DNA of 23,363 nucleotides, from positions 1 through 23,363 of IMG/VR virus record IMGVR_UViG_3300036466_000084, one strand, 5' to 3'. Under the pieces are notes generated by a model. The model saw only the letters and a program-made list of their open reading frames with translations. It was not told where the DNA came from and ran no database searches. Numbering within the stretch: the first letter of the stretch is position 1; every line of letters starts with the position of its first letter. This document shows positions 1 to 23,363 of this stretch, piece by piece. The position numbers were made by a program, and so were the translations under genes. Source of the DNA: a virus.

Positions 1-3000
1 CGCACTAATCTCAGTACCCGCAATAAGCCTATCCCCCGCAATAGTGTCTTTAGCAACAATAGAGCCGTTAACTTGCAAGGCTACAGTTACCCAAGAAGAG
101 CCATTAAACTGCCTAGCTTGAGAGTCTGCACCATCTGTACGAGTCTGTGTGAATATGTCACCAACAACAGGATCGCGCCCAACAAGCGCTGTAAATCTGC
201 TAGTCGCTGTTGATGTTGTCCATGTTATAGCTGAATAAGTTGCCCCATAGAAGCCAGCACCTGCTGAACCATCCTGCCCTGCAACGCCTTGAGGACCTGT
301 TTCACCGTCTAAGCCTGTAATCCTAGTTACATCACGCCACGCACCTGTCACACCATTTGTTACTGTTGCGGTACGTCTGTAGATATCACCAGTAGTGTAG
401 TTATCGTGCCAGTTTGTTGACCCATCTACAGAATATTGATAAACCTCATAGATAGTGTCTCCATCTAAAGCACGTATATCATCTTCACTATTTACACTGT
501 AACCACCAATAACTAGATCACCATTTAGCGTCCATTTTCCTCGATTTGCATTATAGAATAGAGCAGGGTTTCCAGCAGTATCATCAAACTGAATCTTGTC
601 ACCTTGGAATCGTAATCCATTCGTAGACGAATCGGCTGTAATACCTGTAACGGTTGTTTTCCCGTCTACAGTGTCACTAACTCCTAAAAACGCCCTGCTT
701 GACACAACACCTAGATCATCAACAGTGGAATCTAATAATAGTTCAGCAGATGATAGATCACCTTGCGTGTTTTCAACATCAGTAGTTAAAGCGGCAAGCG
801 CTCTCGCTGTACCATCAATACTTGTCTCAGCGTTTTGTATGCGGGTACTATTAGCATTAATCTGTCCGCCTAATACACCTGTGCTTGCTGTTAATTCTAA
901 TATCTCTTGAGCTTGAGCACCTTGCTCATCAGATACCGATTTTAACTGGGCATCAACTGTAGCAACAGAGTCTCCTAGCTCTAAGTCTTTATTACGTTGA
1001 TCTAATAGTTTCAGTTCAGTGTAAAATTGCAGCTCTGCTAAGTCTCTACTTTTAGTCTCAAGTCTATTGACACTTATCAACTGGTTACGAATGCTCGCCC
1101 CATCTAACGCACTAACTTCCTGCTGTACACTATTTAAGCCGCCTGTTAATCCTGCTATCTGATCATCAATTCCACCTGTTTCAGCATTGAAGCTGACTAC
1201 TGTGTTACGTATAGTGGCATTTGCTCCATCTATCCATGTTGCTGCTAAATTAGCCTTAGTTATTGTTCCAGAGCTGTCTAACTCTTGTTGTGTAGCTTTT
1301 AGTGAGATGATTGCATCTTCGCCATCAAGTACTTGAGTTACATTATTTAGAGTTACGGTGTTTTGGTCATAAAACGCAGTTGTTACAAAACTAGTTAATT
1401 GACCTTCGATAGCATCAACATCTATTCCAAGTTGATTAACCTGTGCCGTTATACCATCTAGTGCATCTAGTTGTGCAGATGGTTTGCCTATTGTTATAGA
1501 CGATATGTCGTATGTATCAGCTACGCTATCACCTAGTACTAATCTCAGGCCAGTTACAGTACCTGTATAGGTTGATTCCTCCGCTAGATTTAACGTTTTA
1601 GTATTTGTAACACCCACTGCAACATCATTGATGACACCGCTGTACGTTTGCGTACTACCTCCACTAAATGTAACTATCAAATCGCCTGTATACCCACTTC
1701 CCGCTGTTCGCTCACATGTTATGGTAATCACTGGGTTTTCATCAGCAGAGTAGCTAAGCATTTGATTTTCAATGTCACCCCACGTAACTGAGATCAGACT
1801 ATTGCCCTGAGTTAACGTACCATTTACAGCACTCCACCCTTCTGCACTGTTGAAGAATCTAAATGAATAGGCTGGCAGTATTGCATCAATTGCACCTGCC
1901 ACATACTCAGTCATTTCAGTGTAGCTAGCTTTTATTGCAACTTGCCCTGCCAACACATCAATACTCGCATTGGCATCAGTTACTGAGTCACCCAAATCAA
2001 CTATTTTGCCAGCGTTGATGCTTACACGGGCATCCACACCATCAATTAAAATTCCAGCTTGAGTAAACTGATCATCTGCATAGTTGAATGCCCTTAGTTC
2101 TATTGTCCCACTGTCAGGGTTAACTTCAAATGTTGCGTCAGTTAATTTATTTAGATCTTTGTTAGATTCTCGTCTAAACTGTGCAAGTGATGCTGTGGTG
2201 TTGAATAGCTCCTTGTCACTGCTTTCACGCTTTAATGTTTCAAGCTGCAAGTTTGGTTTTATTGTGCCGTCTATCTCATTTTTGTTAGCTATGATATCAT
2301 CTACTGCGTCATTTAAGTCATTACGAATATCTGTAACGTCAGCGTAAGGGATTACTGATCCTATCACTGTACCTGATGGCTCTGAATCTGCACTGGCTGT
2401 GTTAGAAACTGTGGTGTATATTTCATACTCACTGTTATAATCCAACCCTTCAATGATAAAAGTTCCTGACTGGGAACCTTCATCATAAACTACTCGTGCA
2501 TCTCCTTCAAAAACATAGCTATCATCTAGTAGAAATTCTCCCGTTTCATTGGTCTTTTTATAATAGACTTTCATCTTTTCAAGCCATACACCATCATGTT
2601 CGAATTCTACCTGAATGCCAGAAATAGAATAAGCATTAGCTCTTAGCAAATTCATAGCATTAGGTACAAGTACATCAGGTCCAAACGCTATTTGGGCTCT
2701 TCCATAATTGACCTCTGCTTCTCCAAACCCATCTATCCAAGATGCCTCAAAAACATAGTCCCTATTGTCATATACCAGTGTATCATTTGGAAGATCTACC
2801 TCAGAGATCTGGTTACTGCGGAATACTAACGCTGAAGGGGGTCTTGGAGAGTTCACATCTGAGCTTTCCCATATGTACACAACAGAGCCTATGGCATCCT
2901 CTGGTACACCGCTATTGGAAGACAGTACAATGTCCCCTGTGACTCTTACAGTTATCTCAGGAGAAAGAGGGGCGATATTATTCACTGTCCTTGTGACAGT

Positions 3001-5484
3001 CGGTGCAGATGCCAAAGTGTCATCATATGCTACAAGTCTTGCTACAAAGTCTCTAGAATATTCTTCACCAAATGTCTCTGTAAGTGCCTGTGGTGTTATT
3101 TGATAAGATCTATAATCACCTGTCAGTTTATACTCTAAAGTGTTTCCGCCTTGAGTTATGCGAAGAATGTAACCCATAAGGTAAGGAGTTTCAGTACCAA
3201 CTACTTGGTCCCATTTTAATGTGAAACCATTTCCTTCATAACTTCCTTGACCATCTTCTGTATCAAAACCTGTTGGCTGCGGGATAGTGGATGCACCAGA
3301 CTCCGTTATGTCTAGGTTAATACTTACGCTTTTGGCTGAACTACTTTCACCTGTTACCTCATCTAAAATATACACAGAGAACTCATATCTAGCGGGTTCA
3401 AGAGGTATCGGTAATATGTTATTAGAGACAGATATCTGCCCGCTATCAACTAGAAGACCTGTACCGTTAGGATCTCTTTCCACATCTCCTGTGAACTTCT
3501 TCCAAGAGTAAACATATGTACCACTTTCTGCATCATCCCAGTTTGCAGAAATACCTGCTGTAGTCTTTATAAGAGAAAGCCCTTGTATCACCTCTTGCAG
3601 TTCTGGTACTAGTCTTGTAGGGGGTACTACCAATTCTGTACCATTCTCTATATAACTCTGTAGTGAATCATTGTACTCTAGACATTCTAGTTGTAAAACA
3701 CCTTTATTGTCTGTTACACCCATAACACGTACCAGTGTGGGCTTCAGCCCATCTACATCATTACTTTCTACAGCAAAAGATGTGAAATCTTCTGGCACAG
3801 ATTGCAACGGAGTTGAAAGAGTGACACTATGATTTGTCCATGAAGATATCGGGTATCTTACTGGAACACTTCTATCGTTGTCTAGTACTAAATAAGGATT
3901 TGAAATGCCCCCTAAGTTAATAGGTGTTCTTTTGTCTACAATAATCTCAGTAGATGTAGTTCCTGTTGCAACCTTACCACAATAATTAACTCTTGAGTAT
4001 ATACGATCATATAGTGCAATTACTTCACCTATCTGTACATCCTCGTGCGTATGTCCTACTGAGAAGACATAAGTTGATGTAGCTATCTGTGAGGTAGCTA
4101 GAACCTTTTCAATCGTTCTACGGGCTTCCTGAGGAACTGTACAGGTGTCGGATTTAAGCTTTTGGCTTATTAGTCCATTTTTTGTAATAGCTAAGTCATC
4201 TTGGACTGATATAATATTCTTCTGAAAGTTATTAGTCTCATCAGAATATTCAATCTCTACATAGTTTGTTTTCTTCTTATCAGGAACTGTTGTTCTTTTT
4301 ACCTTCTCATCTTGAATATCATAAGAAGTGATAACTCGTCTATTATCTGTCTGTTTGTCAATCAGTACACCGATTCTGCCGCTGGTGTCTTCATAGAGCT
4401 TACCATCTGCTGCACCTACGATCTGTGATGCTATTCTGAAATAGTTATCTGCTTTTAAAAGCTCTTGACTGTGCTTATATCTCTGAGAACCATCAGGCAG
4501 TGTCTCTGAAAGGTACTTGTCAAATTCTACAAAACTGGCTATATTAATTTTGTCGAGAGGAAGACCAGCGCCCCATTTATCATCTACAAGAACAGCCATT
4601 GCATTCCAAGCATGACTGCCTGATGTGGCTTTGGTGAACTCTCCTAAGAATGTCTGTTCAGCTCCCACATAAACAGGTACGTCAACTCTATAACCATTGA
4701 CTAAGTATTCTCGTTTAGGCGTAGATCCACTCACGTCACTAGATACCACTTTACCACTTACCATTGCGATGTCTTTGTAGGTTTGTGTATCTTTGTATAG
4801 CTCTGTGGCGATAGATGCCGCCCAGTTACCAGTCACCACTGTTCTATAGTAATTGGTAAGGATGTCCATCTCTACTTCATATTCCCACGCCCTATTAAGA
4901 TCTTGATCTCTAGCGAAAAGTGTAAGTTGGACTGAGACAGGGTTTGTAGAATAATAGTAAGGAGTGTCTGATCTTACTGTCTTAACTCGACTACCATTTT
5001 CATCTAAGAGATGCAGCTTGAAGTTAGCCTGAGCACGTTTACGTCTGTTTTTATTATCCTTGTGGGTGAACTGAGGAGCTGTAAAAGAAATACGGACACC
5101 TACAACACCTGCACTGCTTACTGATCTTTTAAAGGTTGTCAATGTACCTGTGTTGTCATCACCCTCTACAGAGTCTGCTTGCTTAGATAACCCATAGGCT
5201 CTCTCAACATAAGGGAAGTCACCTTCAAAAGGTCGGGTTTCTGCCTCTCCTGTATGGGTATAGAACTCTGATAGGGGGAATTCACCTGTTGTGATATCTG
5301 TATCGTTTATATAAACATTGTCTATAGAAGATATTGGTCCAACTGAGACTACATCTACAAAGTTTGCATTACTTTCACTACCAAAGTTTATAAGCCCTGA
5401 TACAGAATAGAGGCTGGGCTTATCGAAGCCCTGATTAGTAACTTGCTGGCCAATCGTTCTTAATGGCTTTTTATTTGTTATCAC
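1..5484 (-). CDS. J: Tail tip / host-specificity protein, gpJ-like (3' end outside window)
   Basis: The frame is open from a GTG at 5484 to the window edge: 1,828 codons with no stop, so the C-terminus is missing. The GTG is preceded by GGAG six bases upstream. Its first bases overlap the TGA stop of the gpI-like gene (GTGA), and an in-frame TAG lies two codons before it, so this start is well fixed. The N-terminal ~600 residues resemble lambda gpJ, the central fibre that binds the receptor and closes the tail tip. Residues about 620-960 look like fibronectin type III or similar beta domains. A long region of helical and beta segments follows (DUF1983-like), then a short collagen-like Gly-X-Y stretch near residues 1724-1744. 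Known gpJ proteins end in the receptor-binding part, which here lies beyond position 1. Identification rests on sequence character and on the lambda gene order M-L-K-I-J. Confidence 0.9.
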   Translation of the reverse strand, partial: MITNKKPLRTIGQQVTNQGFDKPSLYSVSGLINFGSESNANFVDVVSVGPISSIDNVYINDTDITTGEFPLSEFYTHTGEAETRPFEGDFPYVERAYGLSKQADSVEGDDNTGTLTTFKRSVSSAGVVGVRISFTAPQFTHKDNKNRRKRAQANFKLHLLDENGSRVKTVRSDTPYYYSTNPVSVQLTLFARDQDLNRAWEYEVEMDILTNYYRTVVTGNWAASIATELYKDTQTYKDIAMVSGKVVSSDVSGSTPKREYLVNGYRVDVPVYVGAEQTFLGEFTKATSGSHAWNAMAVLVDDKWGAGLPLDKINIASFVEFDKYLSETLPDGSQRYKHSQELLKADNYFRIASQIVGAADGKLYEDTSGRIGVLIDKQTDNRRVITSYDIQDEKVKRTTVPDKKKTNYVEIEYSDETNNFQKNIISVQDDLAITKNGLISQKLKSDTCTVPQEARRTIEKVLATSQIATSTYVFSVGHTHEDVQIGEVIALYDRIYSRVNYCGKVATGTTSTEIIVDKRTPINLGGISNPYLVLDNDRSVPVRYPISSWTNHSVTLSTPLQSVPEDFTSFAVESNDVDGLKPTLVRVMGVTDNKGVLQLECLEYNDSLQSYIENGTELVVPPTRLVPELQEVIQGLSLIKTTAGISANWDDAESGTYVYSWKKFTGDVERDPNGTGLLVDSGQISVSNNILPIPLEPARYEFSVYILDEVTGESSSAKSVSINLDITESGASTIPQPTGFDTEDGQGSYEGNGFTLKWDQVVGTETPYLMGYILRITQGGNTLEYKLTGDYRSYQITPQALTETFGEEYSRDFVARLVAYDDTLASAPTVTRTVNNIAPLSPEITVRVTGDIVLSSNSGVPEDAIGSVVYIWESSDVNSPRPPSALVFRSNQISEVDLPNDTLVYDNRDYVFEASWIDGFGEAEVNYGRAQIAFGPDVLVPNAMNLLRANAYSISGIQVEFEHDGVWLEKMKVYYKKTNETGEFLLDDSYVFEGDARVVYDEGSQSGTFIIEGLDYNSEYEIYTTVSNTASADSEPSGTVIGSVIPYADVTDIRNDLNDAVDDIIANKNEIDGTIKPNLQLETLKRESSDKELFNTTASLAQFRRESNKDLNKLTDATFEVNPDSGTIELRAFNYADDQFTQAGILIDGVDARVSINAGKIVDLGDSVTDANASIDVLAGQVAIKASYTEMTEYVAGAIDAILPAYSFRFFNSAEGWSAVNGTLTQGNSLISVTWGDIENQMLSYSADENPVITITCERTAGSGYTGDLIVTFSGGSTQTYSGVINDVAVGVTNTKTLNLAEESTYTGTVTGLRLVLGDSVADTYDISSITIGKPSAQLDALDGITAQVNQLGIDVDAIEGQLTSFVTTAFYDQNTVTLNNVTQVLDGEDAIISLKATQQELDSSGTITKANLAATWIDGANATIRNTVVSFNAETGGIDDQIAGLTGGLNSVQQEVSALDGASIRNQLISVNRLETKSRDLAELQFYTELKLLDQRNKDLELGDSVATVDAQLKSVSDEQGAQAQEILELTASTGVLGGQINANSTRIQNAETSIDGTARALAALTTDVENTQGDLSSAELLLDSTVDDLGVVSSRAFLGVSDTVDGKTTVTGITADSSTNGLRFQGDKIQFDDTAGNPALFYNANRGKWTLNGDLVIGGYSVNSEDDIRALDGDTIYEVYQYSVDGSTNWHDNYTTGDIYRRTATVTNGVTGAWRDVTRITGLDGETGPQGVAGQDGSAGAGFYGATYSAITWTTSTATSRFTALVGRDPVVGDIFTQTRTDGADSQARQFNGSSWVTVALQVNGSIVAKDTIAGDRLIAGTEISA
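253..315 (-). repeat. Collagen-like Gly-X-Y run within gpJ
   Basis: Seven consecutive Gly-X-Y triplets (GLD, GET, GPQ, GVA, GQD, GSA, GAG) are encoded here in the gpJ frame. Collagen-like repeats in phage fibres and tail tips form short trimeric rods. The stretch sits between an upstream carbohydrate-binding-like segment and a following glycine- and aromatic-rich segment. That placement fits a flexible trimeric linker before the distal receptor-binding part. Confidence 0.75.
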
Positions 5485-20681: not shown

Positions 20682-20891
20682 TCACATGAAGACATCTTCG
20701 TCATCCACAAAGCCTATCAAGCTGTATGGATTATAAGCGTTATCAACTTGGTTATATAATTCCCCATATAAGTCGGTAACTTTAGTTTTTGAACCAGTAT
20801 CCATAGATTCTGTTACAGTCTCACTGTCAAACATGCCTCTCATGGAACTCGGATATAAGTATGTTAATCCCCAAACTAGGGAATCTAATCG
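20682..20891 (-). CDS. terL: Large terminase subunit, 3' exon
   Basis: After splicing, the frame continues from Asp402 into RLDSLVWGLTYLYPSSMRGM and 49 further residues, ending at TGA 20682-20684. SPD joined to RLDSLVWG restores the terminase nuclease motif (S-P-D-R-x-D-x-(L/S)-(V)-W). Without splicing, this stretch would be an orphan open frame with no start codon or ribosome site. Counting from the first ATG in the window the spliced protein has 471 residues, or 482 including 11 open codons at the right edge. Seen in sequence: the frame is intact on both sides; inferred: in vivo splicing. Confidence 0.88.
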   Translation of the reverse strand, partial: RLDSLVWGLTYLYPSSMRGMFDSETVTESMDTGSKTKVTDLYGELYNQVDNAYNPYSLIGFVDDEDVFM

Positions 20892-20906
20892 CTTTTTTCT
20901 TTGTTA

Positions 20907-20928
20907 CTGAGTTTAGTTTATCCCTCAG
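20907..20928 (-). other. Hairpin near the intron 3' end overlapping the HNH stop
   Basis: On the minus strand CTGAG (20924-20928) pairs with CTCAG (20907-20911) around a 12-base loop that contains the HNH TAA stop. It lies 15 bases before the terminal G and may be part of the P9 region of the intron. The helix is short and its role is inferred. Confidence 0.45.
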
Positions 20929-21796
20929 TTGTAATAGGTGTATTTCTTAATTTTATTAACTTGTTTACGTATTTCTTACCTTTTCCGTCTATCTTGTTTT
21001 GGAACTCTTCATCAGAAAGTGCTTTCAACCTGAGTATAAGATCTCGTTCTGATTGCTCCTTTGTTTTAGGAGAAGGCTTTACGTATGGCTTTTTCTTCTC
21101 TGGAGGGTTTATAATATTCTTAACATAAGTTATGAAAGAAGGTTTCTTATCTTTAAGGTAACCCTCAAGCTGAACCTTGTCCATGTTTCTAATCTTATCT
21201 TGAAACACTTGATTAGATGTGTTACCCTTCATTTTCTCAGATATCTTTTTTCTTCTCTCAGGCTTTCTGGCTGCTTCTTTTAAACTAATCAAAGCTTCTT
21301 CTGTGATAGGTTTTGATAGCTTTAATCTCCAAGCTTCTTTTTGATCTGGTGTCAGTTTCCTCATAGGATTCTTGTCACCTGAGATTCTTCCTACATTACC
21401 ATACTGAGAATTGTTCTTACCTCTTCTGCATTTTGCACAGAAAGCTTCATACTCTTCTTCAGTAGAAAAACGATCTCTAAATGGTACTCCGTAGCTACCG
21501 TTATTTTCACCCTTAATCTTTTCAGCTACCCGCTTTCTAACTTCTGGGTGTGCAGCTCTTTCTACCGCTCTAGATTGTGCCATTACAAAGTTGTTAATAA
21601 ACCCATGCTTCTTAGCATGTTCATCAGGAGTAAGTAATTCTAGATTCTCTGGATGATTATTACTGTGGTCATGATCCTTATGATGTATATGCATTTCTGC
21701 CATTTCATCATCAGAAGCTCCTGTCCACAGTTGATAAATCCTTCTATAAGATTTACTACCCTTTTGATACAACTCCATTGCTCTTTCTTTGTCCAT
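20918..21796 (-). CDS. HNH homing endonuclease inside the terL intron
   Basis: A 292-residue protein starting at ATG 21796, with AGGGA upstream. The HNH core is clear: His38-His39-Lys-Asp-His-Asp, then Asn46-Asn47-His-Pro-Glu-Asn51-Leu and Glu59-His60-Ala-Lys-Lys-His64. The His39...Asn51...His60/64 spacing resembles intron endonucleases of the I-HmuI kind. Downstream are NUMOD3-like DNA-binding patches: about residues 97-107 (ENNGSYG), 126-147 (KNNSQYGN...GDKNPM) and 193-200 (MKGNTSNQ). A basic Lys/Arg-rich C-terminus (NPPEKKKPYVKPSPK and on) follows. Such enzymes cut intronless copies of the gene and spread the intron by gene conversion. The stop codon lies in the loop of a small hairpin near the intron's 3' end. 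Confidence 0.88.
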   Translation of the reverse strand: MDKERAMELYQKGSKSYRRIYQLWTGASDDEMAEMHIHHKDHDHSNNHPENLELLTPDEHAKKHGFINNFVMAQSRAVERAAHPEVRKRVAEKIKGENNGSYGVPFRDRFSTEEEYEAFCAKCRRGKNNSQYGNVGRISGDKNPMRKLTPDQKEAWRLKLSKPITEEALISLKEAARKPERRKKISEKMKGNTSNQVFQDKIRNMDKVQLEGYLKDKKPSFITYVKNIINPPEKKKPYVKPSPKTKEQSERDLILRLKALSDEEFQNKIDGKGKKYVNKLIKLRNTPITTEG

Positions 21797-22124
21797 ATTT
21801 TAATTCCCTATTACATCTTTATGTTTCCATAAAGGTCAGACTATATCTTCATCTTCACCATTACGTGTTAAGAGTCTCCCGTTTCGATTCCACTTGGAAC
21901 CTACACACCTTAAAGGTGTTAGTCGTTGAGCCCATCTCTTCTTGAGAGACTTTGCTGCATTGGTTATCCAATCTTTAAAGGTTTTCACTATACCCACTTC
22001 CGTTACAAAATGGTGAACACAGTATATTGCTACCTGTGAACAGTACTTTAAAGCTCTAAGGATGTTCCTGCATTAGGGAGATTACAATTATCACTATTTC
22101 TAATGATACCAGACCGATAACATA

Positions 22125-23363
22125 ATCTGGCGATTTCTTATGCACCTGTGGATTGTACTCACACATTTGTGCTTCAAGGTCTCGATGAATACCTACATGG
22201 TATATCTTACCTCGCTCATATAGTAAACCTATTGGCTCTGCACGAGCACGTTTACCTTTGGATGCAAACACTTTCTTAACAACAACCATTTGGTCAATGT
22301 TAAAGATAGCTGCTGGTATAAAATCTCCACCATTGTTAGTCTCTATAACTACAGCATCTGCATTGTATTCATAATAGAGTCTTACGATGTCTCTGTATAT
22401 CTCAGATATCTTACCCCTTCGAGAAGCATCTTTGAATACATAACCTTTGTCATTCTTCCTACCTACAACTGTGATACCTGTCTCATCCGAGTTAATATCT
22501 TCAACCACGTTAGGGTCAACAGCTACAACTATAGAATCCATAGATTTGACTAGTTTTAAATAGCGTTCATCATACTTATCAGGATCAAGTCCTACGTCAT
22601 CAAGGTCTAAACGCTTTATTGTTTCAAAGGTAAATATTGCTCCTAGATTTTCCTCTAGGATCATGCCTAATACTTCTTGATTGTAGAGGCTTGTCCCTTC
22701 TCCCAGCTTAATCTCATCGATAAATGATTGTGGAAGTGAGTAGTTGTCGAAAGTAGTTCCTGTAGTAAATACTATGTTTGAACCTTCTTTCTGTGACTGA
22801 TCATATAAGTCTTTTAAAGGCTTTATTGGTCTAGGGGATGTAGTTATAATATACCTAGGATGTGAACCTGCACGTAATGCCATTTTAGCCATTTTCCAGA
22901 CACAATCATCTCCACCCGTTAGCCTGCAAAACGCAAATTCATCAATCCAGAGAAAGTGGAAGTTCTCGCCACGAACCCTGTCACCATTTTCAGAGCTGAA
23001 GATCTTAGCTGTTGCTCCATTAGGCCACGTAAGAGAACCATCTGATCTGTTATATTTCGGCTGGAATCCTATAGGAGATAATGCCACAATGCCAGAAGAT
23101 CCCTCTAGCATGTTCGTTCGTCCCTGTGCAAAAGTTGGAGCCACAAGACCTATACGTGCATTTGGGTTGTTTATTGCAAATTCTATTGTAGCTGGAGAAC
23201 CACACCATGTTTTACCATACGCACGACCACAACTCCAGACTGCTCCAACCCAATCTTTTGAGTCGTAGTCAGGCCAAAGTTGTCCATCTCTTAAATAGAT
23301 TCTATAATCCTTAGAGATGTATCTTAGCATTTCTGCATATCTTGTTCCGAAGATTGATTCTAG
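22125..23363 (-). CDS. terL: Large terminase subunit, 5' exon (start outside window)
   Basis: The packaging ATPase and nuclease. Counted from the first ATG at 23330: Walker A-like CGRAYGKT (34-41), Walker B FLWIDE with Asp130-Glu131, coupling motif ITTSPR (162-167), nuclease acidic residues Asp272 (VAVDPN) and Glu330 (VVIETNNGGDF). The third acidic motif starts with Asp402, the last codon of this exon. The frame is open for 11 codons before the ATG (LESIFGTRYAE), which has no ribosome site, so the true start lies beyond the right edge. Read through without splicing, the frame would end at a stop at 22056-22058 after 22 intron-encoded residues. The large subunit binds the portal, translocates DNA into the head and cuts the concatemer. 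Confidence 0.93.

Follow-up and report, generated by a model that had tools for sequence, protein, structure and literature searches.

The best described relative of the locus reported here is an intron in the terL gene of Shewanella phage KASIA (vB_SspS_KASIA, MZ568826). In KASIA-infected cells, shorter RT-PCR products were obtained, and the sequenced cDNA lacked the terL intron (PMC8541194). A further terL intron of KASIA interrupts the Walker A codons (positions 3146-3468 of locus L001); it is without an endonuclease and scored 41.7 bits, just under the Rfam cut-off. Homing endonucleases are known to prefer codons of functionally critical residues (PMC3984707). Metal is bound in the G20c nuclease by D294, D347 and D429, all of which are essential (PMC5389553).

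We analyzed a window of 23,363 bases, the viral record IMGVR_UViG_3300036466_000084, in which head and tail genes lie on the minus strand. According to its gene content it derives from a tailed phage whose relatives include Colwellia phage 9A and KASIA. A very long open frame of at least 1,828 codons occupies positions 1-5484 on the minus strand and runs off the window start; judged by its position, it is probably a tail protein. The N-terminus and start of terL are located beyond the high end of the window. We are highly confident that this terL carries a mobile, spliced group I intron with an HNH gene, inserted between the Asp and Arg codons of the third nuclease motif. Compared with KASIA, the insertion base (SPD|RLDS) and the architecture are the same and the HNH gene is homologous, but the KASIA intron is 1,264 nt long and its core is only about 67% identical to the core in the window. 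The features of the locus are as follows.

20682-20891, minus strand: terL 3' exon, RLDSLVWG...DDEDVFM, which completes the nuclease domain
20892-22124, minus strand: group I intron of 1,233 nt bearing P7.1 and P7.2 (group IA-like), from RF00028, empty-site homologues and the pairs shared with KASIA
20906-20929, minus strand: P9.2 hairpin ACUGAG/CUCAGU, directly before the 3' splice site (z -2.98)
20918-21796, minus strand: intact gene for an HNH homing endonuclease of 292 aa (Pfam HNH_3; PHROG HNH families)
20930-21815, minus strand: P9.1, UGUAAUAGG (21815-21807) with CCUAUUACA (20938-20930), nine pairs, with the endonuclease gene in its loop
21817-22136, minus strand: catalytic core, P1 to P9, from the Rfam match
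21839-21924, minus strand: P7, the guanosine-binding helix, GACUA (21924-21920) with UAGUC (21843-21839)
21875-22081, minus strand: P3, 22081-22076 with 21880-21875, enclosing P4-P6 and the P7 5' strand
21919-21905 and 21901-21886, minus strand: P7.1 and P7.2, hairpins between the P7 5' strand and the P3 3' strand
22056-22058, minus strand: in-frame stop at which unspliced TerL terminates, 22 codons into the intron
22109-22130, minus strand: P1, 5' exon CCAGAU (22130-22125) with guide GUCUGG (22114-22109)
22115-22118, minus strand: P10 guide strand AUCG, forming four pairs with 3' exon CGAU (20891-20888)
22125-23363, minus strand: terL 5' exon (Terminase_6N and Terminase_6C), ending ...KKSPD, aligned to the TerL of the intronless homologue L006 and of 9A
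22560-22600, minus strand: approximate recombination junction in terL, with identity to the related contig L008 of about 67% upstream and about 95% downstream

The 5' exon was identified by Pfam matches to PF03237 (1.3e-22) and PF17289 (1.3e-10). The 3' exon frame, RLDSLVWGLTYL..., spans 20891 to 20682. A first-pass annotation of the sequence had proposed that terL is split by a group I intron, and this was confirmed: the Rfam model RF00028 (Intron_gpI) matched over its full length (1-253 of 253) at 22136-21817 on the minus strand with 75.6 bits and an E-value of 7.7e-18, above the gathering cut-off of 50 bits. Joining the 5' and 3' flanks resulted in a single open TerL frame in which SPD is followed directly by RLDSLVWG, again as had been read from the sequence. 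Left unspliced, the frame reads YVIGLVSLEIVIIVISLMQEHP after SPD, 22 codons (22124 to 22056) that extend across P1-P4 of the ribozyme up to the stop. All of the splice-site features that the annotation had listed were present, namely the U at the exon end, a six-pair P1 that ends in U-G at the 5' splice site, the last intron base G, the four-pair P10, P3 and P7. Hairpins P7.1 and P7.2 between P7 and the P3 3' strand are a mark of the IA introns usual in phages. Therefore, the intron was placed with group IA, by these hairpins rather than by a formal subgroup classifier.

The fold was compared with that of the KASIA intron. Across 17 named stretches, all base pairs (85 of 85) were kept, standard in both phages and none broken, and 24 of these, P10 included, had changed on both sides. 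On a structure-blind alignment, 97.6% of cells were still paired, and two-sided change was seen at 19 pairs. As a control, the partners were slid by one to three columns, which reduced pairing to 35-41% with zero to three two-sided changes; a shuffle control gave 0 of 500. Thus the pairs are conserved much more than expected by chance. Compensatory changes were found at one pair in P3, two in P7 and two in P9.1 (UGUAAUACC/GGUAUUACA in KASIA). P7.2 covaries as well, and P7.1 was not alignable with KASIA. In P10, AUCG/CGAU of the window corresponds to GUCG/CGAC in KASIA, an exchange of A-U for G-C, and this covariation fixes the 3' splice site independently.

Next to these occupied alleles we found intronless ones. 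Empty-site TerL reading SPD|R was observed in L006/L007, in Colwellia phage 9A, in L013 and in at least 14 more distant homologues, so that the expected joining of SPD to R was borne out. No homologue continued as YVIGLV after SPD except L008, which bears the same intron. At the empty site of L013 the codons GAT|AGA are joined with no base lost or added, and precise excision of the intron restores terL as in the intronless relatives. Over terL, L013 and KASIA are about 90% identical, and L013 lacks the intron at SPD|R; the two thus form a natural pair of occupied and empty alleles. The Walker A codons of L013 are interrupted as well, by an intron (about 2880-3994) that holds a different HNH-like gene, and so KASIA and L013 carry an endonuclease in different terL introns. 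Sub-threshold group I matches of 29.5, 28.1 and 20 bits (G003:C1:13788-14046 and G002:C1:318-1053) were seen in relatives without an intron at this terL site.

CGA encodes the Arg 3' of the site in each of the three intron alleles (window 20891, KASIA L001 5859 and L008), and AGA does so in the closest intronless relatives. This difference fits both P10 pairing and co-conversion, which the codon does not separate. Co-conversion at the site was considered for KASIA and L013, where 11 mismatches in 48 nt were counted versus 4.6 expected; 89 of 1,269 positions equal that count, and the excess is only suggestive.

The closest copy of the intron is found on contig IMGVR_UViG_3300009428_000006 (L008, with its endonuclease gene as L009), at the same site and with the same length of 1,233 nt. 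The non-coding cores differ at only 8 of 328 positions (320/328 identical, 97.6%), while adjoining terL has a dS of about 0.33; the core must therefore be strongly constrained. In contrast to the core, the upstream half of terL is just about 69% identical. The change in identity near 22580 lies about 450 nt before the intron, and the identity of about 95% to L008 continues through the end of terL and the next genes. As an edge of co-conversion this junction was not accepted, as ordinary mosaicism is equally likely when the high identity persists over downstream genes. The dS values of the intron gene (0.26) and of the exons (0.32-0.34) are similar, which argues for shared descent of the whole block and not for recent homing between the window virus and L008.

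These data also bear on the possibility that terL is a pseudogene or mis-assembled, having received an unrelated HNH gene and a degenerate group I core that does not splice. The terL frame is indeed interrupted, and the L008 endonuclease contains a nonsense codon (E154*). However, three independent assemblies (window, L008 and KASIA) share this insert and its exact base of insertion, all 85 pairs are kept, and the core is far more conserved than synonymous sites. Both terL exons are under purifying selection, with a dN/dS of 0.076 for the 3' exon against L008, and the KASIA copy splices. We consider a decayed or mis-assembled gene scarcely credible. With the same site, the same structure and demonstrated splicing in KASIA, splicing of the window copy is very likely.

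The position of the intron was examined relative to the active site. TerL consists of a Walker A/B ATPase and an RNase H-like nuclease, according to Pfam and a model of the intronless homologue L006. This model (mean pLDDT 69) matches T4 gp17 and the D6E terminase with an E-value of 2e-15, as well as the G20c nuclease. In L006 numbering the intron separates D449 from D452 in the motif D-x-x-D, within SPDRxDA. In the first-pass annotation the residue before the intron was called Asp402; terL starts beyond the window, and the number is 449 in full-length L006. Its statement that the intron lies exactly at the catalytic Asp was put too firmly. The intron is inside D449-x-x-D452, but it is D452 that is invariant in the TerL alignment, and D449 is replaced by Asn in L029 and L031. 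D449 caps the last nuclease helix of the L006 model and is probably a metal ligand, the equivalent of G20c D429, and an insertion exactly at the catalytic Asp is to this extent probable. Sequence-profile mapping of D449 and D452 onto solved nucleases ended before the last motif, save for one insignificant match, in which D449 aligns weakly with the SDD of HSV UL15. Whichever Asp is the ligand, unspliced TerL loses D452 together with the last nuclease helix.

Such a truncated product could be made on purpose, with the 22 intron codons completing a functional, nuclease-dead motor and splicing acting as the switch. The frame extends by 22 codons in both the window and L008, and the product would retain the whole ATPase. 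In KASIA, however, the first intron codon is already a stop (GAT|TAA), so that the extension is not conserved beyond the nearly identical L008, and the intronless relatives are without any such product. We regard a deliberate motor of this kind as very improbable.

The intron also contains a gene that the first-pass annotation had not recorded. The intact frame of 292 aa at 20918-21796 has the HNH motif HIHHKD..NNHPENL and matches Pfam HNH_3 with 4.1e-8 and 33.2 bits (cut-off 24.8). The protein is 52% identical to its KASIA counterpart. Relatives were found in KASIA and on one IMG/VR contig; beyond these known relatives, a wider search added three bacterial MAG contigs with just weak matches to the HNH domain. 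Against L009 the gene has a dN/dS of 0.117; it is intact and under purifying selection. In L009 (4001-4879) Glu154 is changed to a stop with the remaining frame intact, which reflects either recent loss or a sequencing error.

We weighed whether the intron has kept splicing but lost its mobility, with the endonuclease retained for another role, such as that of a packaging partner of the terminase or a maturase-like helper. HNH proteins encoded beside terL aid packaging in some phages, and in the window and L008 intron and exons descend together, which points away from recent transfer. On the other side, the intron is patchy among close relatives, present in KASIA and absent from L013, which fits gain and loss, and the broken copy in L008 suggests that the protein is not essential there. 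An immobile intron is therefore unlikely, and we favor a mobile one. The annotation had also suggested that a conserved residue favors homing. This agrees with the established view (PMC3984707) and with other terL introns, which interrupt codons of Walker A and Walker B; for the window intron itself, homing is a prediction.

Based on the structure, the following course may be proposed. In the transcript the intron would fold, from P1 to P10. An external guanosine bound in P7 would attack the phosphate 3' of the U in GAU, and the freed exon U would then attack 3' of the terminal G, which would connect SPD with RLDSLVWG and so restore TerL. P9.1, P9.2 and P10 would bridge the endonuclease gene and draw the distant 3' splice site up to the core. 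Translated from the P9.1 loop, the HNH protein would cut intronless terL at or near the site, and the intron would then be copied in via recombination during mixed infection. The last codons of the HNH gene form the 3' strand of P9.1 and the 5' strand of P9.2, P9.2 overlaps the gene end and stop codon, and the ribosome-binding site of the gene abuts P9.1. Because the 3' splice site needs P9.1 and P9.2, splicing and HNH synthesis might be mutually exclusive on one RNA, an idea that we hold to be doubtful. If true, ribosomes on the HNH gene would block exon joining, and production of the TerL nuclease would be tied to low HNH translation.

In comparison with known systems the finding is of low surprise, since for KASIA an intron at this position has been described before and its splicing demonstrated (PMC8541194). 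Group I introns in terL had been mentioned in the annotation for Lactobacillus phage LL-H, rightly so, as its record (NC_009554) annotates a split, HNH-bearing terL. Unlike the window, exon 1 of LL-H ends near the Walker B strand (motif assigned by eye) and not in the nuclease motif, and the TerL is unrelated. Shewanella phages 1/4 and 1/40 likewise have group I introns and an HNH gene in terL, but in 1/40 the Walker A and Walker B regions are interrupted (motif by eye), and the TerL of both phages is unrelated. In the Bastillevirinae, terL group I introns of SIOphi and phiAGATE were shown to splice in vitro or in vivo (PMC11878797). These are Bacillus phages with another TerL family, and the nuclease given for their terL genes is VSR-like (PMC11878797). 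Annotators should join the two parts of TerL over the intron in this virus group, as the protein is otherwise without the last nuclease motif. The locus extends the small number of terL introns whose splicing is known by a well-supported set of occupied (window, L008, KASIA) versus empty (L013, L006, 9A) alleles. In summary, the comparison supports the idea that phage introns settle in active-site codons, with terL cases now at Walker A, Walker B and the third nuclease motif.
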